Below are positions 56,980 through 64,000 of a DNA stretch of 64,000 nucleotides, piece after piece. The notes under the pieces were generated by a model. The model ran no database searches and was not told where the DNA came from. It saw only the letters and a program-made list of their open reading frames with translations. A program made the position numbers and the translations under genes. Within the stretch, counting starts at the first letter, position 1. Every line of letters starts with the position of its first letter. The stretch is from Methylomicrobium sp. wino1 (lineage in GTDB: Bacteria; Pseudomonadota; Gammaproteobacteria; Methylococcales; Methylomonadaceae), in the NCBI RefSeq assembly GCF_003932755.1, contig NZ_CP024202.1, forward strand, positions 4,774,001-4,838,000. Reading direction: 5' to 3'.

Positions 56980-57064
56980 GTAAAATGAACACTAATCGTA
57001 ACTATTCAGTCCCCGGTAATTATCGTTTCCACGCTTTGCGTCACTGCCAATAAGTTAAGGGAAG

Positions 57065-57115
57065 TCCGTCATTCCGCGAGGGATTAGCGGAATCCAGTGC
57101 CATGGATTGCAAGCT
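57065..57115. repeat. Hairpin repeat ATTCCGC...GCGGAAT
   Basis: GTCATTCCGCGAGGGATTAG then CGGAATCCAGTGCCATGGAT, a close match of 40153-40200. The stem is ATTCCGC/GCGGAAT. Confidence 0.55.
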
Positions 57116-57176
57116 TTTAAGGCACATTAGAAAAATGCACGCAAGAATTACTTTTTTTATGACGGCTTAACTTAAG

Positions 57177-58088: not shown

Positions 58089-59456
58089 CTAACCAATCAA
58101 ACGTAATTTGGTCAATTTACTGTTTAGGACACCAGCCGCTACGATGATTGGCGATAGAACTGGGCTGAAAGGCGGTGAGTAAGCGAGGTCTGCGTTTTCA
58201 AGATCAGAGCAAGTCAGCTTACCCAGTAATGCAGTAGCGGCAATATCGATCATTTTATCGACACTCTCGAGACCAATCGCTTGAGCGCCCAACAGCCGGC
58301 CATTTTTCCGATCGGCGATGAGTTTTAACGAAAAGCCTTGTTTACCGGGATAGTACCGAGCCCGGTCACTTCCTTCCGTTACAATCGAAATGGGATCAAG
58401 CCCTGATATCAGCGCAGATTGCTCAGATAAGCCGGTCATTGCGACTGTCAATTTAAAGATCTTGAATATTGCTGTTCCAAAAACGCCGGGGAATTGAGCG
58501 TCTCCCCCGGCAACGTTCTCCCCGGCAACACGGCCTTGTAAGTTGGCGATGTCGCCCAAAGGCATCCATGTTGTTGCGCCTGTTATCCGGTTGACGGTTT
58601 CGCAACAATCGCCGGCGGCGTAAACGCCCGGTACGTTGGTTGCCATTCTTGCATCAACCGCGATGGCTCCAGTGTTTCCGAGTCCAATGCCGGCCTCTTT
58701 AGCCAGTTCCACATTAGGTTTCACGCCAATGGCGATGACAACGAGGTCGGCAGGTATTATTTTCCCGAATTCAGTTTCCACGGAAGTTACCCGGCCATTG
58801 TTGCCGTTAAGTTTGGTCAGACCGTCGCCCAATATTATTTCAACCTGGTTTTCCAGCAAATGGTCATGTACGAGTTGAGCCATTTCCGGATCGAATTTCG
58901 GCAAAATACGGCTCGCCTTTTCGATGATGGTGGTTCCGATATTGAGCTCATGAAACGTCTCGGCCAGTTCCAGGCCGATATAACCGGCCCCAATAATGAC
59001 GGCCTTTTGCGGCTGCAATGTCGGTAACAATGCCTTGAATCGGGCCAGATCGGAGATATTGCGCAAGGTCAACACACCTTCCAGCGTTATGCCTTCAATA
59101 TTCGGCACTATCGGACGAGCGCCGGTTGCAATAATCAATCGATCATAGCTAACGGTAAAATCCGTATTGTCTTGCAGGTTCCTTACGGTGAGTAGTTGTT
59201 TGCCGGTATCGATGCCAAGCACGCGGTGCCGGATAAAAACCCGGATACCGTCCTTGGCAAAATCTTCAGGCTGCCTGATGATGACTTTCCGTTCATCGGC
59301 AATCACACCGCTGATGACATAAGGCATTCCGCAAGCGGAGTAGGCCACTTCGGATTCATCCTGGTAAAGGATGATTTCATTATTCGGATCGACCCGATGC
59401 GCTTTTGCGGCTGCTTTTGTGCCTGCTGCGACACCGCCTATGACGATGATTCTCAT
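58089..59456 (-). CDS. CoA-disulfide reductase-like FAD/NAD(P)H oxidoreductase, last gene of the CoM-type operon
   Basis: 455 residues. FAD site MRIIVIGGVAAGTKAA at the start; redox-active single Cys42 in VAYSACGMPYVISG, as in CoA-disulfide reductases, NADH oxidases and peroxidases; NAD site VVIGAGYIGLE-like (KAVIIGAGYIGLELAETF) near 150; FAD motif VYAAGDCCE near 280; C-terminal YSPPFSPVLSPI, with the Tyr typical of CoA-disulfide reductases. Its ATG overlaps the stop of the PLP gene by 4 bases. In this operon it could reduce the disulfide or persulfide product of the thiolation step, or keep CoM reduced. This is inference from position and chemistry. Confidence 0.82.
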   Translation of the reverse strand: MRIIVIGGVAAGTKAAAKAHRVDPNNEIILYQDESEVAYSACGMPYVISGVIADERKVIIRQPEDFAKDGIRVFIRHRVLGIDTGKQLLTVRNLQDNTDFTVSYDRLIIATGARPIVPNIEGITLEGVLTLRNISDLARFKALLPTLQPQKAVIIGAGYIGLELAETFHELNIGTTIIEKASRILPKFDPEMAQLVHDHLLENQVEIILGDGLTKLNGNNGRVTSVETEFGKIIPADLVVIAIGVKPNVELAKEAGIGLGNTGAIAVDARMATNVPGVYAAGDCCETVNRITGATTWMPLGDIANLQGRVAGENVAGGDAQFPGVFGTAIFKIFKLTVAMTGLSEQSALISGLDPISIVTEGSDRARYYPGKQGFSLKLIADRKNGRLLGAQAIGLESVDKMIDIAATALLGKLTCSDLENADLAYSPPFSPVLSPIIVAAGVLNSKLTKLRLIG

Positions 59457-60520
59457 ATATTCCCCTGTTGTTCAATTGCGCTTGGACTGGAATTCAACCA
59501 ATCGCCGTTCCCGGCAAAAAATGCCGGTTCGCCGCCGGTATGCACAAAAATTATTTTTTTGTGTTGTTCAAACTGATCGCTTTGCAGCCCGTGCAGGAAT
59601 CCGGCCATGGCTTTGCCGGTATAGACAGGATCAAGCAAAATGCCTTCGCTACGACCGATTTGCTTGATTGCTTCGGCTGCTTCCGGGCTTGGGATACCGT
59701 AGCCTTGTCCGATAAAGCCGCCAAAGACGGGCGCATCTTCGGCGCAAAAAGTCCAATCCAGTTTCAATAAGGCTGCGGCTTGTGTTGCCAACTCGGCAAC
59801 TTGTTGGCTGACCTGTTCCGGTTCCCTGCTGACGGTGTAGCAGAGCATTTTCCAGGGCAGGTTCAACAACCTGATACCCAGCAGCCAACCCGCATAGGTT
59901 CCGCCGGAACCCACTGCCAGTGTGATCGCATCGGGTTCTACACCTTGACTCAGGCATTGCTGATGAAGCTCGAAAACAGCCAGCACATGTCCTAAAACGC
60001 CCGTGGCGCAAGCGCCGCCGCGTGGGATTTCATAAGGCCGCCCTCCCTGTTCGCGCAATTTAGCCGCAACCCGGTGAATATGGGTATCGACCGACGCCCT
60101 ATCATCGTCACCGGTAAAATGGAATCGGGCATTCAACATGCTGGTGAGGCGATAATTTCCGTCCATCGTCGCAGGCGGCTTCCCCCAATAAACCGCAGTA
60201 CAATGCAGCCCGACATGAGCCGCGGTAGCCGCTGTCGCCCGCACATGATTGGACTGTACACCGGCGCCGGTTACCAGACAATCGGCGTTCAGAGCCAGGG
60301 CCTCGGCCAGCATCACTTCCAATCCGCGTATTTTATTGCCGCCCAAACCGAAACTGATCAGATCGTCACGCTTAAACCAGAGTTCGATATTTCCAAGCGT
60401 TTCCGTCAACCGATTCGCCCGCATCAACGGAGTGGGATAATGGGCGAGAATGTGCCGGGGTATTTGACCGGCAACACGTTCGATAACGACGCGTCGGTCA
60501 AGACGTTGGCGGGTATTCAT
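59453..60520 (-). CDS. PLP enzyme of the D-cysteine desulfhydrase / ACC deaminase family (XcbE-like)
   Basis: About 355 residues from ATG 60520, which has GAAGAG upstream; a longer ORF to 60601 would overlap the lyase gene by 68 bases and is not family-like. Fold-type II PLP motifs: YPTPLMRANRLTETLG, KRDDLISFGLGGNKIRG with the Schiff-base Lys near 63, and GAGVQSNHVRATAA. Other members are D-cysteine desulfhydrases. In Xanthobacter a D-cysteine-desulfhydrase-like protein belongs to the coenzyme M cluster and gives the thiolation type chemistry. Same strand, 13 bases after the lyase. Confidence 0.82.
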   Translation of the reverse strand: MNTRQRLDRRVVIERVAGQIPRHILAHYPTPLMRANRLTETLGNIELWFKRDDLISFGLGGNKIRGLEVMLAEALALNADCLVTGAGVQSNHVRATAATAAHVGLHCTAVYWGKPPATMDGNYRLTSMLNARFHFTGDDDRASVDTHIHRVAAKLREQGGRPYEIPRGGACATGVLGHVLAVFELHQQCLSQGVEPDAITLAVGSGGTYAGWLLGIRLLNLPWKMLCYTVSREPEQVSQQVAELATQAAALLKLDWTFCAEDAPVFGGFIGQGYGIPSPEAAEAIKQIGRSEGILLDPVYTGKAMAGFLHGLQSDQFEQHKKIIFVHTGGEPAFFAGNGDWLNSSPSAIEQQGNI

Positions 60521-60533
60521 GACAATCAGCTCT

Positions 60534-61901
60534 TCAAGGTAAAAATATTCGTGCAATGACTTGCTCAACCATGGCCGCGCAAACTCCAGTGCTTTGTCCA
60601 AGATTGAACAGCGCCTCTATCTCGTCATGAGTCAGGATAGCGCCGATTTGCGGGTTATTGATAAGCGCCTGCTTAAGATGCAGTCCTTCGTCCTGAGCTT
60701 GCATGGTCAGATCGTAAACAAGCCGATGCGCGCTTTGCTTGCCCAGTGTTTTCGCGAGAACCAGCATTACTGCCTCGGCATGGACAAAGCCTTGGGTCGC
60801 CAGGATATTGGCGCGCATCCGCTGTGGATTAACCTGCAAATCCTTGAGCAGCAGCTTGAGCAACGTCAAGGATTTGCCGGCCGCTAGCGTCGCGTCGGGA
60901 ATAATTGCCCATTCGCCTTTCCAAGAACGGCCGTCGCGTTCATGGCTATGTACTAAATTTTCAGCCATATGGGCGGCATGATGCCTGACGACTCTGGACA
61001 AAGTGCCTAAATGTTCCGAAATTTCAGGGTTTCGTTTATGGGGCATGGTAATACTGCCGACGGCTCCGAGGATAAAACCTTCGCTTAACTCGGCTATTTC
61101 AGGACGCTGCAAATTGAATACTTCTTGCCCTATGCGATCACCGGTTGAGGTTATCATTGCCAGAACATTTAACCATTCGGCCAAGCGGTCCCGGCTACTG
61201 GTCCAGGAAATCGCCGGCGCTTTCAGTCCCAACCGTTGCATGAACTCCGATTGTAATTCCAGGGGATTAAATCCTAGCGACGATAAGCTACCGACTCCGC
61301 CGCATAATTGCCCAACGCCCAAGCGACTTTTTAATTCATCCAGCCTTAACCGGTGCCGATCGAATTCATCCAGCCAACCGGCTGCTTTAAATCCAAAGGT
61401 AATAGGCAATCCGGGCTGTCCATGCGTGCGGCCGCACATAGGCGTCAAACGATGCTCAATTGCCAGCGTTTTAAGGAATTTTTCCAATTCCGCGATTTGC
61501 TCGACAAATAATTGCCTAACTGACATCAACACACGGACAATATGCGTATCCGTTATATCTTGTACGGTTGCGCCATAACAAAGCCATTCCCCACCTAACG
61601 GGCCGCACCTTTGTTTTACGGCATTGATGAGCCCTAACAGCGAATGATTGGTCTTGATAAAATCTTCGCCAATTTCTTTTAAAAAGGTCTCATCGACTAA
61701 AAAATGGTTATAAAAGGTTTCAATTTCGAGAGCGGCCTGTTTTGGAATTAAATCGAAATCGGCCTGTACACTGGCTAGTACGGTCATGACTTCCAGCCAG
61801 CCTTTGATCCGGTTTTGCTCTGAAAAAAGACGGCGAAGCTCCGGTGTTGCCCAGGATACGCCGTAAATTTCAGAATCACTGATGTGGACTGAATCACTCA
61901 T
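60534..61901 (-). CDS. Aspartase/fumarase-superfamily lyase, PurB-like (CoM operon)
   Basis: 455 residues. Looks like adenylosuccinate lyase or 3-carboxymuconate cycloisomerase: YGATVQDITDTHIVRVLM, CGRTHGQPGLPITFGF (catalytic T-H retained) and the C3 signature loop GSITMPHKRNPEISE (one Ser of the usual GSS retained). It lacks other PurB context (no purine gene nearby). It is 4 bases overlapped with the ArgH-like gene. By analogy with XcbC1/XcbD1 of Xanthobacter it should eliminate phosphate from phosphosulfolactate or act on the next intermediate. Which of the two steps is undecided. Confidence 0.8.
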   Translation of the reverse strand: MSDSVHISDSEIYGVSWATPELRRLFSEQNRIKGWLEVMTVLASVQADFDLIPKQAALEIETFYNHFLVDETFLKEIGEDFIKTNHSLLGLINAVKQRCGPLGGEWLCYGATVQDITDTHIVRVLMSVRQLFVEQIAELEKFLKTLAIEHRLTPMCGRTHGQPGLPITFGFKAAGWLDEFDRHRLRLDELKSRLGVGQLCGGVGSLSSLGFNPLELQSEFMQRLGLKAPAISWTSSRDRLAEWLNVLAMITSTGDRIGQEVFNLQRPEIAELSEGFILGAVGSITMPHKRNPEISEHLGTLSRVVRHHAAHMAENLVHSHERDGRSWKGEWAIIPDATLAAGKSLTLLKLLLKDLQVNPQRMRANILATQGFVHAEAVMLVLAKTLGKQSAHRLVYDLTMQAQDEGLHLKQALINNPQIGAILTHDEIEALFNLGQSTGVCAAMVEQVIARIFLP

Positions 61902-63403
61902 GTTCTTATGTAACTCTCCGTACGCTGCAATAAACTCTGCCGTTTATGTTCAAAAAAAATTTTATTGGCTTGGTTTTTTTCTCGAAACGCATTGAGCTGC
62001 TGACGGCAATCGGCCAACATATTATCCAGACTGGCACTCGCAGTGCCTCCGGCTTCTTTTCGCTGTTGAATCGCTTCCTCGGGTGTTAATGCCGACTTAA
62101 GTTGAGCACTCGTCAAGGTAATCGATTTACCTAACACCTTTTCGCTCATTCGCATGACCGAGCCGGCATCCATCTTCAAATGACTATCAGCCGGATATTC
62201 CCTGACTAAACTCGCCACTAACTGATGCGCACTGCGAAAATCAAGGTCGCAATACTGCACCAAGGCCTCGGCCAAATCCGTCGCTAAAGCCCATCCCGAA
62301 CCAATCAGGGCATACGCTCTGTCCGACTTGAAACTAAGCCCTTGCAGCATTTCGGACATCAGCGCCGCAGCCTGCTCAACCAGCTGCATACCCTCCGGCA
62401 ATTCCCCATAAATCATCAAACGGTTATCCGGTTGGCCGGAAGGTGTTCTAGCCGACGCGCAAACCGAAGCAGTCAGGCCAATCATCTTATTGGCAATGGC
62501 TCGTATGTGCGTTAAGGCAAACGGATTTTTTTTCTGCGGCATGATTTTACTGGCCCGGGCATGTTGATCGTCCAATTCAACCAACGCAAACTCCTGGGTG
62601 CTGAAAATTTGCAGGTCTTCCGCTAAACGGCTGAGATTCACGATACAAGCCGTCAATAGTGCGGTATTTTCTATGCTTAAGTCAGGTTGCCACATCGCAT
62701 CCCGCGCATGCGTAATAATATCCGCAAAGCCTAATAATTCGGCTAATTGCTCGCGCCCTTGCGGCAAACGCGAACCGTTTGTGCTGCCGCAGCCCAGCGG
62801 ACTGCGATTCACTTTTTCCAGCAGGCAATCAATCCTTGCTAAATCTCTTAATAAAGGATAAGTAAAACCCAATAAGTAGTGCCCGAATGTCGTAGGCTGA
62901 GCGGCTTGCATATAGGTATAATCCGGCATCAGAGTATTCTTATCGCTTTCTGCCCGGTTAATGAACGTTTCAGCCAGCATTATCAGGGTTTCCGACAGCG
63001 TCAGTATTCTTTGCCTGACATCTAAAATGAAAGCGGCGGTAATGGCTTCACGCCGGGCGCGTCCGGCCCCTAGCCATTTTACGGCACCGGTTCTTTCCGC
63101 CAGCCAGGCTTCACGATTGGTATAGATATCGCCGCCTGCGGGTATTGCCTTGAAAGAATCGGGTTTATCTTGCAGAGCCCGTAAAAAACGCAGTAATTCA
63201 ATGCCTTGCTGCCGGGGAATGGTTCCCAGTTCCATCGTACTGATGGTGTGAGCCAGATCCACTATGCCAATAGCTTCAAACAAGTGTTGCTGATGACTCA
63301 ACTCCCAGGTGAAAGCGGATTCGATCAAACAATCCGAAGGGGATGATGTTAATCGTGTGCCTATTTCCAACACTTGTTGCCGGATTGATGCCCCGTCTGA
63401 CAT
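61898..63403 (-). CDS. Aspartase/fumarase-superfamily lyase, ArgH-like (CoM operon)
   Basis: 501 residues. Argininosuccinate-lyase fold: GDIYTNREAWLAERTG, PLGCGSTNG and the loop SKIMPQKKNPFALTHIR. Three key positions differ from ArgH: GRSRNDQ is GRARREA, the catalytic THLQ is TYMQ (His to Tyr), and the GSS before MPxKxNP is ASK. So it is not a housekeeping ArgH. Joined to the ComA-type gene by TAATG and to the next lyase by ATGA. It fits one of the two aspartase/fumarase-type proteins (XcbC/XcbD) of bacterial coenzyme M synthesis. Confidence 0.82.
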   Translation of the reverse strand: MSDGASIRQQVLEIGTRLTSSPSDCLIESAFTWELSHQQHLFEAIGIVDLAHTISTMELGTIPRQQGIELLRFLRALQDKPDSFKAIPAGGDIYTNREAWLAERTGAVKWLGAGRARREAITAAFILDVRQRILTLSETLIMLAETFINRAESDKNTLMPDYTYMQAAQPTTFGHYLLGFTYPLLRDLARIDCLLEKVNRSPLGCGSTNGSRLPQGREQLAELLGFADIITHARDAMWQPDLSIENTALLTACIVNLSRLAEDLQIFSTQEFALVELDDQHARASKIMPQKKNPFALTHIRAIANKMIGLTASVCASARTPSGQPDNRLMIYGELPEGMQLVEQAAALMSEMLQGLSFKSDRAYALIGSGWALATDLAEALVQYCDLDFRSAHQLVASLVREYPADSHLKMDAGSVMRMSEKVLGKSITLTSAQLKSALTPEEAIQQRKEAGGTASASLDNMLADCRQQLNAFREKNQANKIFFEHKRQSLLQRTESYIRT

Positions 63404-64000
63404 TAGATTTTCCTTGCTAACGGGACGGCCGCGATACCGGCAAGCTCCTTGTCGTGCTCAGCTTGATTAGGGTCCCAATCCCCTCTGCGTACCAATTGCG
63501 AACTGACTCGATCCAAGGTATCAAAACGCAAGCCATTGCGCAAAGCTTCTACGGCCAACACCTGATCCGGACAAATATTGCCTAATCCGGTGTTTCCTCC
63601 GAACTTTTCTATTAAGTAAGCTTGTTGATTTTTTAGCGGCGCTTCCCAAATCAACGCGTCGATTTTGGGCCCCATAATGTCAATAATACAGTCAATATAA
63701 GATTCTTCGACTTTTCCGGATGCGTCGAAAATACCGACTCCCTGTCCGCTTTCCCGGCCTTCAACGATGACCCATGCCGCTCCCCACTCCAGATCCTGCA
63801 GTGCTTCTTCGGCAATTTGTTCGGTGGTAGGCTGTCGTTTCGGGTCTTTTTTACCCACTTCGGTAATCGGAATCAGCCCTGCATTCAAAGCGCACTCAAT
63901 AACTTTTTTTCTTCTGAATGCGGGCAGCGGTATGGTACCGTCGGAAATTTCCACAGCGCTGAACCCTAAGGATTTGGCATGCGTCATAAAAACGCGGCAA
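63403..64000 (-). CDS. comA: Phosphosulfolactate synthase (ComA type), 5' end outside the window
   Basis: About 199 codons visible; the frame stays open to the window end (upstream codons Cys-Arg-Val-Phe precede the first Met at 63987), so the start lies beyond position 64000. ComA adds sulfite to phosphoenolpyruvate, the first step of coenzyme M synthesis. Motifs: LGFSAVEISDGTIPLP, ITEVGKKDP, GAAWVIVEGRESGQGVGIFDASG and GLGNICPDQVLAVEALRNGLR, all ComA hallmarks. The last base of its TAA stop is shared with the ATG of the next gene. Confidence 0.88.
   Translation of the reverse strand, partial: CRVFMTHAKSLGFSAVEISDGTIPLPAFRRKKVIECALNAGLIPITEVGKKDPKRQPTTEQIAEEALQDLEWGAAWVIVEGRESGQGVGIFDASGKVEESYIDCIIDIMGPKIDALIWEAPLKNQQAYLIEKFGGNTGLGNICPDQVLAVEALRNGLRFDTLDRVSSQLVRRGDWDPNQAEHDKELAGIAAVPLARKI

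Follow-up and report, generated by a model that had tools for sequence, protein, structure and literature searches.

The stretch of DNA analysed here (the window, 64,000 nucleotides) covers positions 4774001-4838000 of the single-contig genome of Methylomicrobium sp. wino1, 5,056,496 bases long. At its right end lie five minus-strand genes that an earlier note, made from the letters alone, had described as a complete-looking operon for the bacterial synthesis of coenzyme M (CoM) in a probable methanotroph. Their open frames are confirmed, with 58089-64290 as their part of the cluster, and reading of the sequence bears out the junctions TAATG, ATGA, a 13-base gap and ATGA. The five form the 3' end of a larger cluster of 14 genes, 17 kb long and on one strand, which reaches about position 75178 with nine genes past the window. 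The 14 genes are as follows (coordinates past the window carry on its numbering, as positions in locus L002 plus 57000; identities are to proteins of Xanthobacter autotrophicus Py2; SDR, short-chain dehydrogenase/reductase; 2-KPCC, 2-ketopropyl-CoM oxidoreductase/carboxylase):

58089..59456, minus strand: CDR, an FAD/NAD(P)H flavoprotein that resembles CoA-disulfide reductase and has one active-site Cys motif (TIGR03385 match)
59453..60520, minus strand: xcbE, pyridoxal-phosphate enzyme of CoM synthesis (NF052537 548 bits, cut-off 450; 54%)
60534..61901, minus strand: xcbD, aspartase/fumarase-superfamily enzyme of CoM synthesis (NF052536 717 bits, cut-off 600; 48%)
61898..63403, minus strand: xcbC, aspartase/fumarase-superfamily enzyme, predicted to eliminate phosphate from phosphosulfolactate (NF052535 724 bits, cut-off 575; 44%)
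63403..64000 in the window, gene to 64290, minus strand: xcbB/comA, phosphosulfolactate synthase (TIGR03849 301 bits for the full frame, cut-off 280; 53%)
64295-65197, minus strand: XcbA/DUF7714 (NF052538 493 bits, cut-off 150; 60%)
65200-66063, minus strand: CoA-transferase subunit (PF01144 22.6 bits, just below 23)
66056-66976, minus strand: CoA-transferase subunit (PF01144 90 bits)
66987-67757, minus strand: SDR1, S-type dehydrogenase (start set by inspection)
67766-69331, minus strand: 2-KPCC homologue (PDB 1mo9, E 2.8e-207; 56%)
69360-70127, minus strand: SDR2, S-type dehydrogenase
70148-71251, minus strand: EtnE, epoxyalkane:CoM transferase (71% over 365 residues)
71771-73183, minus strand: acylating SauS-like aldehyde dehydrogenase (NF047625 523 bits, cut-off 600)
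73265-75178, minus strand: activator of GAF/sigma-54/Fis type

The start of xcbE is the ATG at 60520, internal to a longer frame listed to 60601. The genes are presumably co-transcribed; a gap of 519 bases lies upstream of etnE. It had been advised to look past 64 kb for an epoxyalkane:CoM transferase or a 2-ketopropyl-CoM reductase, and both EtnE and a 2-KPCC homologue are indeed there. The residues that we take to be the zinc ligands of EtnE, an H-x-C motif plus a distant cysteine, are common to this protein and the Py2 enzyme in the alignment.

Genes for coenzyme M synthesis

Phosphoenolpyruvate and sulfite would be converted to CoM via XcbA-E. The five genes are present in the cluster, in the same xcbA-B-C-D-E order as in the Py2 operon. 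XcbB, XcbC, XcbD and XcbE, with matches that chance would not give, all exceed their curated NCBIfam cut-offs, as does XcbA, and the comparison with Xanthobacter that had been proposed as a check gives the identities listed above, from 44% for XcbC to 54% for XcbE. The Xcb models also far outscore those for ArgH, PurB-like proteins and CuyA (724 versus 269 bits for XcbC, 717 versus 429 for XcbD, 548 versus 283 for XcbE). The XcbC model gives 723.5 bits for XcbC itself and 210.5 for a separate ArgH-like match in the genome at 4646758-4648104, which makes XcbC an additional paralogue. As pmoA (PF02461) occurs once in the genome, the organism would be a gammaproteobacterial methanotroph, and the claim of a complete-looking CoM gene set in such an organism stands.

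What did not survive is the assignment of one gene per step to the window's five genes. On that reading these would carry out all five steps of CoM synthesis by themselves, the flavoprotein being the final reductase; they lie side by side, their ends overlapping or close together, and the bacterial route of 2022 is said to comprise five steps and to end in a reduction. However, the flavoprotein is without a counterpart in the CoM operon of Py2 (the best hit in a 33.6-kb stretch is 28% identical), and XcbA accompanies XcbB, C and D in 33 of 33 loci, against 14 for CDR and 17 for the aldehyde dehydrogenase, counts that depend on score thresholds set in this analysis and include some truncated loci. 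The remaining CoM gene, encoded just past the window, is therefore XcbA and not the flavoprotein, and a pathway limited to the five genes is very improbable. The aldehyde dehydrogenase, for its part, would belong to catabolism rather than to CoM synthesis, because the cluster has a true XcbA homologue and the SauS cut-off is missed. That the product is some other sulfonated thiol or a sulfonate seems to us still harder to believe: the genes are linked to CoM by similarity only, and diverged xcb sets without etnE nearby do exist (on a Methylocystis iwaonis plasmid), but the scores are well above those required by CoM-specific models and an EtnE homologue adjoins the genes.

Six residues of XcbA/DUF7714 are invariant in an alignment of 39 sequences (A2; numbering of L043): Cys198, Cys228, Cys249, Cys265, Cys266 and His132. 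The protein may bind a metal; a confident structure model (pLDDT 93) found no clear PDB relative in the searches run. The M. iwaonis set, on plasmid pSS37A-Re-1 (L008:11884-17458), lies beside genes of the OsmC and ketopantoate-reductase families and scores 267 bits for ComA (cut-off 280), 246 for XcbA (150), 504 for XcbD (600), 209 for XcbE (450) and 423 for XcbC (575). The 33-kb stretch around it yielded no match for EtnE; this set may serve some other purpose, with CoM or a relative as its product.

The 2-KPCC homologue, the dehydrogenases and the flavoprotein

2-KPCC is an unusual CO2-fixing disulfide oxidoreductase. We take His506 to be part of a Phe-His dyad, thought to decide there between carboxylation and protonation. 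The cluster's protein has tyrosine in its place, and for want of His506 it is filed here as a homologue rather than as a carboxylating 2-KPCC. It keeps the other residues to which we presume roles in 2-KPCC, namely Cys82 and Cys87, His84, His137, Arg56, Arg365 and Phe501. In all, 82 homologues were aligned: the proteins of the window, of Py2 and of the ethylene users Mycolicibacterium NBB4 and Nocardioides JS614, plus 78 loci kept from the best 80 of 89 matches in a contig scan with two peptide patterns, an incomplete sample. In this set residue 506 is histidine in 63 proteins, tyrosine in 18 and leucine in one. Arg365 and Phe501 are kept throughout (82/82), and Cys82, His84, Cys87, His137 and Arg56 in all 80 rows having these columns. 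The tyrosine goes with other changes: all 18 Tyr rows have Leu419 where all 63 His rows have Met419, and Gly434 is found in 18/18 of the former versus 1/63 of the latter. Read in this way, the Tyr506 homologue is predicted to be a non-carboxylating variant, protonating its substrate instead.

The change arose more than once. Three His/Tyr changes are needed on a careful tree of 44 rows from which the columns of the Tyr-linked residues were removed, as on a quick tree of 80 rows, and a single origin of Tyr506 is rejected by the approximately unbiased (AU) test (p 0.002), leaving at least two. Four residues are specific to the gammaproteobacterial Tyr group; those at 419 and 504 are common to Methylocystis and to locus L041, and none of the four occurs in any of ten other lineages tried. 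L041 comes from a metagenome-assembled genome (MAG) of the betaproteobacterium NC_groundwater_329; its homologue is a long-branch Tyr506 protein, in a genome without a PF02461 match. It possibly represents a third origin, outside methanotrophs. The actinobacterial ethylene users NBB4 and JS614 keep His506, which fits the carboxylation included in their proposed route, as far as the parts of the sources used here describe it (PMC8727900; PMC6440738).

Both SDR1 and SDR2 are of S-type, without Arg152 and Arg196, presumably the signature of R-hydroxypropyl-CoM dehydrogenase (R-HPCDH); a genome-wide search with the Py2 R-HPCDH has SDR1 itself as its best match (149 bits, 40%). Two S-type enzymes and no R-type one fit an achiral C2 epoxide. 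Near the 2-KPCC homologue, SDRs with Arg152 and Arg196 are found at 42 of 63 His loci versus none of 18 Tyr loci, with the proviso that 21 His loci are also without one (10 of them with more than 4 kb on both sides) and that flanks are shorter at 8 of the 18 Tyr loci. A search of whole genomes with Py2 R-HPCDH gives a best match of no more than 165 bits (36-42% identity) in each of the 18 Tyr genomes, some of them incomplete MAGs, against 242-372 bits (51-66%) in five His genomes, picked as positive controls because an R-type SDR had already been seen at their loci.

The flavoprotein CDR has an ACGMPY motif that aligns to the Cys motif of CoA-disulfide reductases. Relatives 37% identical occur in the NBB4 and JS614 clusters, and CDR fits an ethylene-type catabolism. 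Among 15 loci fetched from the family it is present in all 11 having XcbE above 300 bits (one CDR being partial); the four loci without it are also without a full XcbE in view. Six of the 15 come from genomes already represented among the 82 homologues, each with Tyr, Leu419 and Gly434. In the nine others no 2-KPCC homologue was seen in view (one 67-bit hit, 30%), an absence that is weaker in the four that also have no EtnE and/or aldehyde dehydrogenase in view. The constancy of CDR beside XcbE, with nine loci where no 2-KPCC homologue is seen, points to CDR, rather than to the 2-KPCC homologue, as the likely common reductase of these clusters.

Architecture varies otherwise. At L128, L138 and L140 an FAD oxidoreductase that we assign by eye to the GMC type lies in or beside the cluster, with no SDR match or 2-KPCC homologue in view; L141 has an SDR. 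At L136:707-11488 the cluster is split (SDR and CoA transferase, other genes, xcbA-B-C, other genes), and xcbD, xcbE and CDR were not seen in the 19.5-kb view.

Distribution and transfer of the cluster

XcbC passes its cut-off in 16 of 201 genomes of the family and in only one of the six sampled from the genus, the window's own. Among named organisms, the most similar clusters are those of Methylobacter sp. FW305_bin.9 (2-KPCC homologue 94% identical) and Ca. Methylobacter oryzae (92%), both of a genus (g15) other than that of the window's organism (g1). Compared with FW305_bin.9, nine of 11 cluster genes are 91-95% identical in DNA, with xcbD at 89% (over 1203 of 1368 bases) and xcbE at 81%; outside the cluster, identity is 75.0% for rpoB, 72.7% for argH and 78.8% for pmoA. 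By rpoB, two genomes of the organism's own genus stand at 90.6 and 90.9%. In a 23-kb comparison with L043, alignment is confined to the cluster (L002 1099-3385, 3663-14338 and 14351-18334) and a piece of 238 bp. Apparently, then, the cluster was acquired horizontally and passed between genera. It is itself a mosaic, since identity to Ca. M. oryzae is 68-76% for xcbA-D, whereas xcbE, CDR and five other compared genes reach 85-90%. Transfer had been proposed in 2024 because occurrence is patchy and, for two strains, on the grounds of composition (PMC11507031, cited here and below from part of its text); to this we add a sequence test for transfer between genera. A dispersed repeat, with many same-genus copies at about 78-88% identity, lies at 57042-57175, between the cluster and the conserved left flank.

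A probable role in the disposal of epoxyethane

The cluster very probably makes CoM and spends it in disposing of epoxyethane formed when the particulate methane monooxygenase (pMMO) co-oxidises ethylene. We infer the substrates, the order of the steps, the role in detoxification and the effect of the tyrosine as follows. Toxic epoxyethane from pMMO would be opened by EtnE with CoM supplied from phosphoenolpyruvate and sulfite by XcbA-E, and an S-type dehydrogenase would give 2-oxoethyl-CoM. The acylating aldehyde dehydrogenase and/or the CoA transferase may turn this into a CoA thioester, of which CDR would cut the C-S bond reductively, yielding acetyl-CoA and regenerating CoM. The 2-KPCC homologue could also cut 2-oxoethyl-CoM directly, with Tyr in place of His506 expected to protonate, not carboxylate.

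Growth on short alkenes by the carboxylating route of Xanthobacter, in which 2-KPCC leads to acetoacetate, would account for the close likeness of EtnE and of the 2-KPCC homologue to the Py2 proteins and for the seven other tested residues being kept. It is very unlikely all the same. PF02332, the soluble diiron alkene monooxygenase, has no match in this single-contig genome (the same search was positive in 16 of 51 genomes), no R-HPCDH-like protein exceeds 40% identity, Tyr replaces His506, and a methanotroph with a similar cluster did not grow on ethylene (PMC11507031).

Several observations nevertheless weigh against disposal of epoxyethane by the steps just proposed. The aldehyde dehydrogenase misses the SauS equivalog cut-off and CDR that of CoA-disulfide reductase (TIGR03385, 433 bits versus 578.8). 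In five clusters (L128, L138, L139, L140 and L141) the view takes in EtnE and the aldehyde dehydrogenase but shows no 2-KPCC homologue, whose role must therefore be dispensable or different. At L041, a Tyr506 locus, CDR was not seen in the 1.7 kb past XcbE; at two Methylocystis Tyr loci the view stops short of this region. Finally, the 2024 paper lists sulfoacetaldehyde dehydrogenase as an enzyme of CoM synthesis, and in Methylohalobius protein 11, probably the CDR equivalent to judge by its name, is one of two not raised by ethylene (PMC11507031), which speaks against CDR as a dedicated cleaving enzyme.

The system is, to go by that source, the epoxyethane-detoxification cluster published for methanotrophs in 2024, where similar clusters were reported in 14 of 150 genomes, about a tenth, and where ethylene raised 11 of 13 cluster proteins of Methylohalobius crimeensis (Toppings et al., 2024, PMC11507031). 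CoM genes in a methanotroph are thus less of a surprise than the earlier note had it. By gene names only, the published clusters share etnE, SDR, CoA transferase, phosphosulfolactate synthase, two lyases, a D-cysteine-desulfhydrase-type enzyme, sulfoacetaldehyde dehydrogenase, and flavoproteins of sulfur-reductase and E3 types, and pMMO is the epoxide source there and the presumed one here. Unlike them, the present cluster has a sigma-54/GAF regulator, two S-type SDRs, and a 2-KPCC homologue on the same strand, and its 14 genes include neither a MEDS regulator nor an acyl-CoA synthetase; '2-ketopropyl' is absent from the main text of the paper. The present cluster departs from the published kind in the altered dyad and in the accompanying gene set. 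The propylene/CoM operon of Py2 (pXAUT01) resembles the cluster in its epoxyalkane:CoM transferase, 2-KPCC, SDRs and xcb gene order, but has His506 and an R-type SDR, and no counterpart of the CoA transferase, the acylating dehydrogenase or CDR in its 33.6-kb stretch. The ethylene/vinyl chloride clusters of NBB4 and JS614 share the CDR relative, CoA transferase, acylating aldehyde dehydrogenase and xcb genes; they differ in retaining His506 and an R-type SDR and in their annotated MEDS regulators, and the route proposed for this type involves, in the part of the source used, a carboxylase and malonate semialdehyde (PMC8727900).

A wider scenario, which we offer tentatively and regard as rather doubtful, is that in methanotrophs 2-KPCC has repeatedly become, through His506Tyr with Met419Leu, a reductase that adds a proton and needs no CO2, with loss of the R-hydroxyalkyl-CoM dehydrogenase, and that this C2-only, detoxifying form of the pathway passes from genus to genus in one piece of about 17 kb. 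The Tyr506 proteins offer natural variation at the residue presumed to decide between carboxylation and protonation, so that the question can be put to natural enzymes, and CDR, tied to the C2 route, is a candidate for the unproven step of C-S cleavage. Ethylene inhibits methane oxidation in soils (PMC11507031), and a detoxification cluster that can be transferred matters for which methanotrophs are active there.

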